A stretch of DNA of 37,136 bases from an uncultured Methylococcaceae bacterium (GTDB lineage Bacteria > Pseudomonadota > Gammaproteobacteria > Methylococcales > Methylococcaceae), in assembly GCA_903910005.1 (NCBI GenBank), contig CAIVXW010000345.1, positions 1 to 37,136 of the forward strand. Reading direction: 5' to 3'. Made by a program: the position numbers and the translations under genes. The notes beneath the pieces are model-generated. The model did no database searches, was not told the origin of the DNA, and saw only the letters and a list, made by a program, of their open reading frames with translations. Shown here piece after piece: positions 20,653 through 28,645 of this stretch; the stretch's first letter is position 1, and the number at the start of each line of letters is the position of its first letter.

Positions 20653-22050
20653 ATGCGTCTGCCCCTGATCCTGCTACTGTTATGCCCTGCCTTACCGGTT
20701 CATGCCTGGACCTGGCACGGACAGGTGCGTACCAAGTTGCAAACCGACAACCGTTATACCGGCCAGGCGGATGTATTTGGCGAGGTGTGGGGGCAGATGG
20801 GCTTTGAGCACGGTGGCCGTGATCTCAGGGGGGCGGTGGATGTGATGGGCCATGCCGGGCGGTTTGATTTTGAAAGCGGCTCCAGGCTGTATCAGGGCTA
20901 TCTCGACAAGGGCTATGCCGCATTCGACAGCCGGGTGAAACTGGGCCGCTTCGAGCGCACCGACCATCTGGGCTTTTATCTGGTGGATGGCGGCAACTGG
21001 ACGTACACCCCCCAGGGGCAAAACTGGACGGTCGAAGCCTATGCCGGACGTCCCCGGCGTATCGACCATGTGCGTTCGGTGGAAGGCGATTTCGTGGGCG
21101 GCGTGGAGGTACGCAGTCACTGGGCCTTGAATTGGGGCAACGGGCACTGGCCGGGGCTTACGAGCATCGACTGGCGCGGCGGGTATCAGCGGTTTGCCTA
21201 TTCGGCGTCTGACACCCGTGACCCGCTATCGACCCAGCAGGCCGTATTGAATGGCGTGCAGGGGGTCGATGCCAGTCAGTTGCTGGCCGATGCCGGTATT
21301 CCATATACCGTACCAGTGACACCCGCTGCTCCCTCGCCGGTGGCGGATGCCGTGGATCGCTGGCAGATGGGTTCGACCCTGCGGGGACACTGGCGGGCTG
21401 AACCGTATAGCCAGTATGAAGTGAATGTACTGGGGACGTATCGCAGCGATCAAAGCCGGGTGGAAAATGCCCTGACCACCGCCTGGCTGGATCTCGGGAA
21501 AACCGTGCGCTGGCGCGGCAGTTACGAGTATTACCGCCCTCGGGAGCCGTTTCTGACGTTCCGCGAACGCTTTTACAGCGCCTATGTGCTGGGCGAGCAA
21601 ACCCTGATGAAATCCCGCGTACACTACAGCCCGACTGAACGCTGGACGGCGTATGCCGGCGGGATGCATGCCACCCGTCAGGGCGATGACGGTTACGGGG
21701 GCGATGCCGGCGTGACCTGCCGCATCACGCCCAATCTGTCGCTATCCGGCGAGTTTGATTATCTGGGGCTGGGCGTGGATCAGGCCCGCAGCGGGTATCT
21801 GGCCCTCAGTCATACCGTCAACTCCCGGCTTCAGCTCCGGCTCAATACCGCCTTGCGGTTTGAGCAAAAGCAGTTTTACGGCGACAACCGGGCCGCCGGG
21901 GCTGAGGCCGAAGCTCGCTACATGGTACGCAACAACTGGATCGTGCAACTGGCCGCCAGCCAGATCTGGAACACCCGCCTGCCGGATGAATATCTGGCCG
22001 CCGTGCAGGCGATTTATTACTTCGACCCTTTCAAGCCCAAATCGCCCTGA
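20653..22050 (+). CDS. Outer membrane beta-barrel (porin-like) protein, first gene of the multiheme operon
   Basis: Signal peptide MRLPLILLLLCPALPVHA; alternating aromatic/polar strands throughout; C-terminus ...EYLAAVQAIYYFDPFKPKSP. Confidence 0.75.
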   Translation: MRLPLILLLLCPALPVHAWTWHGQVRTKLQTDNRYTGQADVFGEVWGQMGFEHGGRDLRGAVDVMGHAGRFDFESGSRLYQGYLDKGYAAFDSRVKLGRFERTDHLGFYLVDGGNWTYTPQGQNWTVEAYAGRPRRIDHVRSVEGDFVGGVEVRSHWALNWGNGHWPGLTSIDWRGGYQRFAYSASDTRDPLSTQQAVLNGVQGVDASQLLADAGIPYTVPVTPAAPSPVADAVDRWQMGSTLRGHWRAEPYSQYEVNVLGTYRSDQSRVENALTTAWLDLGKTVRWRGSYEYYRPREPFLTFRERFYSAYVLGEQTLMKSRVHYSPTERWTAYAGGMHATRQGDDGYGGDAGVTCRITPNLSLSGEFDYLGLGVDQARSGYLALSHTVNSRLQLRLNTALRFEQKQFYGDNRAAGAEAEARYMVRNNWIVQLAASQIWNTRLPDEYLAAVQAIYYFDPFKPKSP

Positions 22051-25763: not shown

Positions 25764-28645
25764 TGCTGATAGTCCTGCTCTGGTTAATCGGGCTGTTGAC
25801 CGGCCCGGTTGCCGCCGCCGAACGTCACAGTGATCCGGATGGCTGTTTTTCCTGCCATGGCCTGCCGGGGCTGGAGTTTATTGACGCGCAAGGCGTGAGG
25901 CGGGTCGCCAGCATCCTGCAAAGCGATTATTACGGTTCGCTGCACGGCAGCGTACCCTGCAAGGACTGCCACCGCCAGATTGAGCGTTATCCGCACAAGC
26001 CGGAAGAAGGCCTGGTGAACTGCGCTGAGTCCTGCCACGTCGAGGAACCCTCCGATGGCAAGCCCTTCAGCCACAAGGCGGTGGTGGACGAATTCAAAAC
26101 CTCGGCGCACGGTTCCGGCCACGCTCCCGGGGCCACCCGCGACTTCCACGGCGGCAATCGCCTGAAAGAAGCCAGCGATGAGCAGAATCCGTCCTGCCGT
26201 CGCTGTCACGCCAACACGCCCTATATCAAGGATACCCAAATGGCCGCCTTCAAGGAGGCCTTCAATCACACTGAAACCGAGTGCGGGGTTTGTCATCAGG
26301 GCGAGACCTGGCGTAACCAGTACAGTGGCCATATCCTGCGCCGCCTGGTCGGTCACAATTATTCCAAGGCCGATGCCAACCAGATGTGCATTGATTGCCA
26401 TGCCAATCAGACCCTCATGGAGAAGGTCAAACTGGAAGACCCGCTGACCCATGAGAAAAAACCGGCCAGTTTTCGCTTTACCCATGCGGTCGACAGTTAT
26501 GCCAAAAGTCTGCACGGTCGTTTGATCCAGGTGGGGGTTGAGGCCGGCGCCAACTGCATTGATTGCCACGCGCCCACCGGATTCCGCCACGGCATCCAGC
26601 GTGACGAGCAGTTTACCGCCTCAACCCATCCGGCCCATCTGGCGCAGACCTGTGCCACGACCGGCTGCCACGGCTATGCCCTCAAGGCGGCCAATGGTCA
26701 CTTTGTACAAACCGACATGCACAATGTGGCCTGGTTGCGGCTGGATGTATTGCCGTCCTGGCTGGATGCCAAACGGCTGGATTCGCTGTACTACCGCATG
26801 GACTGGGTGCTGGCTCCGCTGGCGGTTCTGTTCGCCCTGGCCAGTCTGGTGTGGTACCTGCGCCCGACCGCCCACACGGCCATTCTGGGCCATACCCGGT
26901 TTCTGCGGGTCATGACCGAGGCCGACACCCCGCCGGGCTGGCTGGCCCGCTGGCTGCGCCACTGGCGCAAGACGGCGGCAGCACCGGAGCCAGCCGGGGT
27001 TGAAACCGGATGGACCACGCTGCTGTATGCCTCACAGACCGGCAATGGCGAGAGTCTGGCCGAGGCCATGGCAGCCCTGATCGAACAGGCCGGTTTTACC
27101 CGTTTTCGGGTGGTCAACATGGCCGATTATGACCCGGCCCGACTGATTTACGAGCAGCAGGTGTTCATCATCACCAGCACCCACGGCGACGGCGAACCGC
27201 CGTTACCGGCTCACAAACTGTACGCCTACCTGCACGGGCCGGACGCACCGGTACTGGCTCCGCTGCAATACGGGGTGCTGGCACTGGGCGACAGCGGCTA
27301 CCGGCAATTCTGCAAGGCGGGCAAGGATTTTGACGCCATTCTGGAAAAACTGGGGGCCGAACGGGTGTTGCCCCGGGTGGATGCCGATGCCGATTTCGAA
27401 CCCGCTGCCACGGCCTGGCTGGACGCCGTCATCGACCGCTACCGCACCGTGTCCGGGGATGTTGGCAACCTGCCAGGCGTATCGTTCAGCAGCAGTCGGT
27501 CGACCGGTTCCGGTGATAAACCGGACGGTTACGGCAAGCACAACCCCTATCCGGCCCGCATTGTGGTCAACCGTCGGTTGAACGGCCAGGGTTCCAGCAA
27601 GGACACCCGCCACATCGAGATTGACCTCGACACGTCCGGACTGATCTATGAGGCCGGTGATGCCCTGGGCGTCGTGCCCCGAAACAACCCGCGTTACGTG
27701 GAACACCTGCTGGAGGTTCTCAATGTGGATGGCTACAGCGAAGTCAGTCCCGGTCAGGACACCCTGACCGTGCGCGAAGCCTTTTACAGTCATCTGGACA
27801 TCACCGGACTCAGCCGGGTACTGATGGAAAAATATGCCGACATCGCCGACAGCCAGCCGCTGCGGGAACTGCTGGCTCAACCGGAACAGACCTTTCAGAA
27901 TTACGTCTACGGCCGTCACCTGGTGGATATGCTGCTGGATTTTCCCTCCGCCGCCTGGAGCCTCAATGATCTGGTCAACATCCTGCGCCGCCTGCCGCCC
28001 CGGTTATACTCGATTGCCTCCAGCATGAAAGCGGTCGGCAATCAGGTTCACCTGACCGTAGGCACGGTGCGCTACCACGCCCACGGACGCGACCGCGAAG
28101 GCGTATGCTCGACCTTCCTGGGGGATCGGATTGGCCAGAATGAACGGGTCGGTGTTTTTGTCCAGGCCAACCCGCACTTCCGGTTGCCGTCAGCCGGTGA
28201 CACCGACGTCATCATGGTGGGACCCGGCACCGGCATTGCCCCGTTCCGCAGCTTTATCCAGGAACGTGAAGCCACCGGAGCGACCGGTAAAAACTGGCTG
28301 TTTTTCGGGGATCAGCGGCGCGATTGCGATTTTCTCTATGCCGAGGAATGGGAGCAGCGTCAGCATCAGGGGGTGCTGACCCGGCTTGACCTGGCCTTTT
28401 CCCGCGATCAGGCCGACAAGGTCTACGTCCAGACCCGCATGCAGCAACAGGGGCGGCTGATTTATGACTGGCTGGAAAACGGAGCCTGCTTCTACGTGTG
28501 CGGCGACGCCTCGCGCATGGCCCAGGACGTACACCAAACCCTGCTGCACATTGTGCAAACGGAGGCCGGCATCAGCCGGGAACGGGCCGAAGAATACCTT
28601 GCCGCCCTGATGCAGGGCGGACGTTATCTGCGGGACGTGTATTGA
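25763..28645 (+). CDS. Fusion: exported multiheme cytochrome - TM helix - CysJ-like diflavin (FMN/FAD/NADPH) reductase
   Basis: Signal peptide; CFSCH, CKDCH, CAESCH, CRRCH, CGVCH, CIDCH, CIDCH, CATTGCH; TM WVLAPLAVLFALASLVWYL; FMN loop LLYASQTGNGES; FAD motif RLYSIASS; NADPH loop VGPGTGIAPFRSFIQER; C-terminus GRYLRDVY. Confidence 0.93.
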   Translation: MLIVLLWLIGLLTGPVAAAERHSDPDGCFSCHGLPGLEFIDAQGVRRVASILQSDYYGSLHGSVPCKDCHRQIERYPHKPEEGLVNCAESCHVEEPSDGKPFSHKAVVDEFKTSAHGSGHAPGATRDFHGGNRLKEASDEQNPSCRRCHANTPYIKDTQMAAFKEAFNHTETECGVCHQGETWRNQYSGHILRRLVGHNYSKADANQMCIDCHANQTLMEKVKLEDPLTHEKKPASFRFTHAVDSYAKSLHGRLIQVGVEAGANCIDCHAPTGFRHGIQRDEQFTASTHPAHLAQTCATTGCHGYALKAANGHFVQTDMHNVAWLRLDVLPSWLDAKRLDSLYYRMDWVLAPLAVLFALASLVWYLRPTAHTAILGHTRFLRVMTEADTPPGWLARWLRHWRKTAAAPEPAGVETGWTTLLYASQTGNGESLAEAMAALIEQAGFTRFRVVNMADYDPARLIYEQQVFIITSTHGDGEPPLPAHKLYAYLHGPDAPVLAPLQYGVLALGDSGYRQFCKAGKDFDAILEKLGAERVLPRVDADADFEPAATAWLDAVIDRYRTVSGDVGNLPGVSFSSSRSTGSGDKPDGYGKHNPYPARIVVNRRLNGQGSSKDTRHIEIDLDTSGLIYEAGDALGVVPRNNPRYVEHLLEVLNVDGYSEVSPGQDTLTVREAFYSHLDITGLSRVLMEKYADIADSQPLRELLAQPEQTFQNYVYGRHLVDMLLDFPSAAWSLNDLVNILRRLPPRLYSIASSMKAVGNQVHLTVGTVRYHAHGRDREGVCSTFLGDRIGQNERVGVFVQANPHFRLPSAGDTDVIMVGPGTGIAPFRSFIQEREATGATGKNWLFFGDQRRDCDFLYAEEWEQRQHQGVLTRLDLAFSRDQADKVYVQTRMQQQGRLIYDWLENGACFYVCGDASRMAQDVHQTLLHIVQTEAGISRERAEEYLAALMQGGRYLRDVY

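Follow-up and report, generated by a model that had tools for sequence, protein, structure and literature searches.

The window analysed here is a stretch of 37,136 nucleotides from an uncultured Methylococcaceae bacterium (contig CAIVXW010000345.1 of assembly GCA_903910005.1), which contains six co-directional genes (20653-28645, plus strand) for an outer-membrane barrel, three multiheme c-type cytochromes with seven, eight and six hemes (termed cyt7, cyt8 and cyt6), a NapH-like polyferredoxin, and a fusion of an octaheme domain with a CysJ-type diflavin module. With a probability of about 0.64, these genes supply the core parts, in the inner membrane, the periplasm and the outer membrane, of a trans-envelope conduit that carries electrons outwards, starting on the cytoplasmic side and ending at the cell surface, and the likeliest use of which is the disposal of reductant. 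In such a conduit, NADPH would be oxidised in the cytoplasm by the FAD/FMN module, the electrons would cross the inner membrane via the polyferredoxin, acting as one module with the membrane-anchored octaheme domain, and they would then be handed to the soluble octaheme and hexaheme cytochromes and further to the heptaheme cytochrome in or under the 22-strand barrel. They would leave the cell through surface cytochromes (a heptaheme of the cytochrome-c553o type, an NHL-14-heme protein and a triheme), whose genes adjoin the core in relatives and are found on other contigs in this genome. In cells short of oxygen or starved of copper, excess reductant would most likely be passed in this way to Fe(III), humics or electrodes.

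The six genes are part of a locus with a strictly kept gene order. When an alignment of the octaheme domain was used to scan 85,488 named genomes, 74 loci were found; the barrel, used by itself as the query for named genomes, had earlier returned no loci. Synteny was counted over a non-redundant set of 78 loci, and the full order of nine genes (surface heptaheme cytochrome, barrel, heptaheme, octaheme, hexaheme, polyferredoxin, octaheme domain, triheme, NHL-14-heme) is present at 44 of these, while the others show a partial order, mostly because of contig ends, and none shows a different one. The window has the section from the barrel to the octaheme domain, and relatives with long enough contigs have the same six genes in the same order. 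A preliminary description of this DNA had left the conservation of the neighbourhood to a search, and the 44 complete loci settle that point. Polyferredoxin and octaheme are separate proteins in 22 of them, fused in 13, and in 9 the octaheme is linked to a CysJ module. Carriers are found among the Methylococcaceae, Methylothermaceae and Crenotrichaceae, mussel methanotroph symbionts, metagenome-assembled genomes (MAGs) of Chromatiales, Sedimenticola, the Beggiatoaceae (Thioploca, Parabeggiatoa, Halobeggiatoa, Venteria), one Nitrosomonas MAG and one Polarisedimenticolaceae MAG. The copies in the latter two, the Nitrosomonas MAG with a CysJ fusion and the Polarisedimenticolaceae MAG labelled as Acidobacteriota, could be due to horizontal transfer or to binning errors, and in some Beggiatoaceae loci no match to the barrel was found. 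As the polyferredoxin is detected at E 1e-60 in 51 of 301 genomes of the host's order, and strong octaheme matches occur in 7 of 401 genomes of the class, the locus is conserved but patchy.

Coordinates and junctions of the operon were re-read in the sequence. The barrel gene (20653-22050; 465 aa with a signal peptide) overlaps the cyt7 gene (22050-22763; 237 aa, signal peptide, 7 CXXCH) in a TGATG at 22048-22052, cyt7 overlaps cyt8 (22760-23770; 336 aa, signal peptide, 8 CXXCH) in an ATGA at 22760-22763, and cyt8 overlaps cyt6 (23767-24675; 302 aa, GTG start at 23767, 6 CXXCH) in a GTGA at 23767-23770. A gap of 32 bp (24676-24707) separates cyt6 from the polyferredoxin gene (24708-25763; 351 aa, ATG at 24708), which overlaps the gene of the octaheme-diflavin fusion (25763-28645; 960 aa, 6 CXXCH) in a TGATG at 25761-25765. 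The three cytochromes and the fusion thus contain 7+8+6+6 = 27 CXXCH, and the fusion has in addition a CX3CH at residue 87 and a CX4CH at residue 297, which confirms to the base the six genes, junctions and motif counts of the preliminary description. The single CXXCH of the polyferredoxin (residue 265) falls inside a ferredoxin motif and is excluded from the heme count. Residue-shuffled proteins have 0.02-0.04 CXXCH each, and the observed counts are therefore not a matter of chance. Because homologs of the octaheme domain keep the six CXXCH and the CX3CH in 74 of 74 cases and the CX4CH in 70 of 74, 29 is the better heme count for the six-gene core, and the N-terminal domain of the fusion is most likely an octaheme domain. 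None of the six proteins matches a terminal reductase family in Pfam or NCBIfam, in line with what had been noted before for this cluster. A scan for sigma-70 promoters found none (fewer than in shuffled sequences), and the promoter/RNA check of the locus gave no match in Rfam.

A locus of this kind is already in print. Methylococcus capsulatus Bath has a putative eleven-gene operon starting at MCA0424 that encodes eight cytochromes with 58 CXXCH and the beta-barrel MCA0427, that has a sigma-54 site (ATGGTTCGCATTTTGCT) and a putative Fur box, that lies in a cluster including TonB-family genes, and that has already been compared with MtrCAB (Larsen and Karlsen 2015, PMC4831470). Genes of this locus are up 2.3- to 8.6-fold without copper, and MCA0424 and MCA0426 have been located on the cell surface (PMC4831470). 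A flavodoxin-domain gene and an Fe-S protein had been noted by Ward et al. 2004 (PMC517821), and copper-starved M. capsulatus reduces ferrihydrite and produces an anodic current (Tanaka et al., PMC6281684). The 17-mer ATGGTTCGCATTTTGCT is found in one copy and in the correct orientation upstream of the first heptaheme gene in 5 of 5 Methylococcus loci, and the heme counts of these loci, 7+7+7+8+6+6+3+14, add up to 58 in eight proteins, equal to the published total; the published Fur box AATAATGATAATAAATATCA has no exact copy in the Methylococcus loci. Because the placement of the sigma-54 site and the heme sum match the published operon, the window genes are identified as orthologs of MCA0427, 0428, 0428b, 0429, 0430 and 0431, the numbers being presumed from their position. 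Barrel, heptaheme, octaheme, hexaheme, polyferredoxin and octaheme-CysJ thus follow each other as in MCA0424-MCA0433 (copper-responding cluster 1; Ward 2004, Larsen and Karlsen 2015), whereas the upstream heptaheme, the triheme and the NHL-14-heme genes are on other contigs in the host of the window. A porin-cytochrome-type operon, as which the six genes had been read, is supported by the synteny, by the predicted barrel and by the orthology to copper-starvation-induced genes, and is not new.

The expression and physiology of M. capsulatus agree with an outward flow of electrons. Some observations weigh against an outward conduit as drawn above: the mutant with reduced current is that of MCA0421, an adjoining surface cytochrome gene outside the eleven-gene operon, and its loss of current is partial (PMC6281684); M. 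capsulatus does not grow by Fe(III) reduction (PMC6281684); in sequence, the barrel is unrelated to MtrB/PioB; an AlphaFold2 model of a natural polyferredoxin-octaheme fusion reached a pLDDT of 48 and was discarded; and most homologs are without the CysJ module, and therefore NADPH cannot be the general donor. The missing growth on Fe(III) would also suit the main rival explanation, according to which the same anatomy constitutes an NADPH-driven extracellular Cu(II)/Fe(III) reductase that aids the uptake of metals, as needed for the copper enzymes of methanotrophs, rather than a system for respiration or reductant disposal. Such an assimilatory function would go well with the induction by copper starvation, the putative Fur box and the clustering with TonB-family genes in M. 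capsulatus (PMC4831470), NADPH is typical of assimilatory reduction, and transmembrane NAD(P)H ferric reductases with TonB partners have been proposed among PepSY-like systems. It is nevertheless unlikely, as 29 core hemes plus more than 20 outside the core far exceed the needs of known assimilatory reductases, as sulfur oxidisers (Chromatiales, Sedimenticola, Beggiatoaceae) have the locus without the NADPH part, and as there is no metal transporter among the nine conserved genes.

The encoding of a predicted outer-membrane barrel together with multiheme cytochromes is one mark of the class of porin-cytochrome conduits, and the six genes show it. The barrel shares 49% identity with its Methylococcus homologs and 76% with its nearest named relative, from a Methylococcaceae bacterium, and its family has no convincing Pfam match. 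An AlphaFold2 model based on 16 sequences has 22 strands (pLDDT 76.9, pTM 0.70) with a loop of low confidence at 186-230. Foldseek searches with this model against the PDB returned outer-membrane barrels in general, the best being generic ones (MOMP, AlgE, ushers), with TM-scores near 0.4 and MtrB (6r2q_B) only at rank 41, and the model thus supports a barrel, not an MtrB. A tie to MtrB/PioB, which had been considered before, is disfavoured: the PF11854 profile is unmatched at E 0.1 by the barrel and its 15 homologs (16 of 16 sequences). As a control, the same profile does find a true MtrB/PioB member in another genome (G113, C1:321576-323651), which also carries a locus of the nine-gene type; in the host genome, no protein belongs to PF11854. 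With 22 strands, a barrel has the width of those of TonB receptors, in which a plug of about 150 residues sits. Cyt7 (237 aa) can be described as similar in size to such a plug, and its gene directly follows the 3' end of the barrel gene at the complete loci. By this adjacency and its heme density, cyt7 is a candidate for a cytochrome inside the barrel. In Pfam it has a weak Cytochrome_C7/c3 match; cyt8 matches Cytochrome_C7 and the MtrC/MtrF domain II/IV, cyt6 has a doubled-CXXCH match, and both are presumably periplasmic.

The generic character of the best Foldseek barrels would be compatible also with an ordinary solute porin, in which case the cytochromes would serve an unseen periplasmic reductase and no electrons would leave the cell, and it fits to this that the surface cytochrome genes are unlinked in the host genome. 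Such a purely periplasmic system is highly improbable, however, as neither the operon nor the nine-gene locus contains a reductase, as every complete locus has surface-type cytochromes linked to the barrel and two such cytochromes are on the surface of M. capsulatus (PMC4831470), and as all three surface-type partners are still in the host genome. In this assembly (2.96 Mb in 511 contigs), heptaheme cytochromes of the surface type are encoded on two other contigs, the NHL-14-heme protein on a third and the triheme on a fourth, all with a similar G+C content; the NHL-14-heme gene adjoins an RND efflux-like set and the triheme gene a transport permease. The six-gene core is the part that stayed together in this host, and the predicted components for a whole path from the cytoplasm to the surface are present in the genome. 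The conduit of the preliminary description is supported for the core and was incomplete with respect to the surface cytochromes on other contigs and to the locus already described in M. capsulatus. The host itself is likely a methanotroph. No pmoA match was found in its assembly or in that of a family-mate, and pmoA was found with the same search in 3 of 4 relatives. Metagenome assemblies often lack pmo genes that were present in the organism, for which reason methanotrophy stays likely; the missing pmoA reflects either an assembly gap or a lineage without pMMO.

For the outward conduit, the inner membrane would be crossed by the polyferredoxin and the octaheme domain. The polyferredoxin has four transmembrane helices, two CX3CP and two 4Fe-4S motifs, like NapH and NosR of the NapH/NosR/RdhC polyferredoxins, and a fifth transmembrane helix at the C-terminus; the two CX3CP are present in 71 of 71 homologs. 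It matches Fer4_5 with 1e-20 and TIGR02163 with 4e-21, the latter below the cut-off, and reaches 75.7 of 213 bits and 67 of 234 bits at the NapH equivalog and subfamily cut-offs, respectively. It differs from NapH by these scores, by its extra transmembrane helix, and by its octaheme cytochrome partner, to which it is partly fused. At 22 loci, a single polypeptide comprises both polyferredoxin and octaheme, and in it the fifth helix leads straight into the N-terminus of the octaheme ('...ITEAIAAQRYPDPDGCQTCH...'), thus being its membrane anchor. This arrangement would place the ferredoxin clusters inside and the hemes outside, and because such fusions occur naturally, it can be suggested that polyferredoxin and octaheme act together also where they are separate, as in the window.

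The fusion protein of the window consists of a signal/anchor, the octaheme domain (predicted to be periplasmic), one transmembrane helix (348-366), and the flavodoxin-FAD-NADPH module (predicted to be cytoplasmic). As the octaheme domain ends in a transmembrane helix, its C-terminus would be cytoplasmic, and it is there that the CysJ-type module is attached. This module has the domain order and the cofactor motifs of CysJ diflavin proteins, with 651 bits to the CysJ model TIGR01931, and it aligns with the sulfite reductase flavoprotein 6efv (9e-137) including the FMN, FAD and NADPH motifs, so that it is complete in this respect. In contrast to CysJ, it lacks the N-terminal 58 residues, is fused to a transmembrane helix and eight hemes, and has no CysI partner in the genome. 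A role as part of a sulfite reductase is rejected: CysI was found in none of 14 genomes of the host's order, the best host match having 47.5 bits against a cut-off of 757, with weak partial matches, and the fusion is the sole CysJ match in the host genome. Stand-alone CysJ-like diflavin proteins without CysI occur in three other genomes, G113 being one of them.

When 72 octaheme domains are placed in a tree, the CysJ carriers fall into one group of 13 (support 97/94) with a single member that has no CysJ, and one gain and one loss would suffice to explain this. The octaheme-CysJ sequence of the Nitrosomonas MAG falls inside the Methylothermaceae part of the tree. Two separate entry points at the inner membrane, as proposed in the preliminary description, are disfavoured by the polyferredoxin-octaheme fusions and by the restriction of CysJ to one clade, and polyferredoxin and octaheme seem to make up a single module in the inner membrane, with NADPH as an optional input, in which the polyferredoxin may be fed by quinol, by NADPH or by both. 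A more specific proposal is tentative and somewhat less probable than its opposite: diflavin, polyferredoxin and octaheme may together form one inner-membrane NADPH dehydrogenase for extracellular electron transfer that bypasses the quinone pool and links cytoplasmic NADPH directly with the cell surface, and an older conduit fed by the polyferredoxin may have gained the NADPH part a single time, with later transfer, perhaps even to a Nitrosomonas.

Like MtrCAB and MtoAB, the locus combines an outer-membrane barrel and multiheme cytochromes on either side of it, and has the same presumed job, whereas its barrel is outside PF11854 and has 22 predicted strands instead of the 26 of MtrB, there is no decaheme MtrA, and the inner-membrane donor would be polyferredoxin-octaheme and not CymA. 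A proposed methanotroph conduit with a conserved gene order in the Methylococcales is also the MtrAB-like cluster of a Methylobacter bioanode (PMC13322032, 2026). That cluster consists of different genes (decaheme MtrA, an MtrB/PioB barrel and two monohemes), which rules out that the two are the same. The undecaheme (Uet) system of Tenderia and Gallionella likewise has a porin, triheme cytochromes and NHL proteins, whereas the tetraheme UetA, the undecaheme UetJ and the peptidyl-prolyl isomerase UetB of its accessible description are absent here, UetA and UetJ by heme counts, and that description includes no polyferredoxin. As far as this source goes, the locus is not the Uet of Tenderia; the composition differs, and there is distant homology of four components only. 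Distant homologs of cyt6, the octaheme, the triheme and the NHL-heme proteins are found in a second type of cluster in three gammaproteobacterial genomes, together with 11-heme and 24-heme proteins and in one of them (G401) also with a tetraheme, and in composition the tetraheme/11-heme/NHL part fits the accessible description of Uet. This second, distantly related kind of cytochrome cluster (8, 7 and 3 hemes, NHL, 18-24 hemes) was seen at five loci in other gammaproteobacteria, with an 11-heme protein in three genomes, and in some genomes the octaheme homolog is present in two or three copies.

As this second cluster type resembles the electron-uptake cluster of Tenderia, so far as that is described in the accessible source, it speaks for an inward flow, in which electrons from Fe(II), a cathode or sulfur minerals would be taken up and the CysJ module could make NADPH. 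The occurrence of the locus in chemolithotrophs and the reversibility of multiheme wires in principle point in the same direction. Such a flow is quite improbable, since the record for M. capsulatus comprises outward current and Fe(III) reduction only (PMC6281684), and since reducing NADP+ with electrons of Fe(II) or minerals is a strongly uphill step and the locus has no energy-coupling subunit.

Directly upstream of the operon and on the same strand, the window contains ccmE and ccmF of cytochrome c maturation (16404-18832), the usual partners of which, ccmG and ccmH, are not recognisable in 18830-20650. The intergenic region 18830-19760 has a 30-bp repeat with copies 97% identical and 668 bp apart, which resembles part of a dispersed repeat element, and just upstream of the operon (19804-20322) there are two small open reading frames, the first with a DUF2281 N-terminus, that are perhaps toxin-antitoxin remnants. 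A VWA/DUF2201 metallopeptidase-like protein and a dynein-related/MoxR-like AAA ATPase are encoded on the minus strand (28685-31088), converging on the operon end, and ExbB and TonB genes at 33069-34619 (minus strand) are outside the conserved locus.

The literature searched, beside which other papers may say more, contained nothing on a conservation outside Methylococcus, on the fusion of polyferredoxin and octaheme, or on a single origin of the NADPH module. As far as this literature shows, it is the wide conservation, the polyferredoxin-octaheme fusions and the clade-restricted NADPH input that are added here, and the window contributes a new member, in which the surface part is split, to a locus type whose barrel and inner-membrane module differ from those of MtrCAB. 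By which route the electrons of aerobic methanotrophs get to iron oxides and electrodes is not settled, and the locus, which is common to methanotrophs and sulfur oxidisers, is a complete and testable candidate that is not of the MtrCAB type. If the NADPH module works as drawn, extracellular electron transfer would be fed from a cytoplasmic nucleotide and not only from quinol, and barrel, polyferredoxin and octaheme together form a marker set for systems that screens based on MtrA and MtrB would miss.

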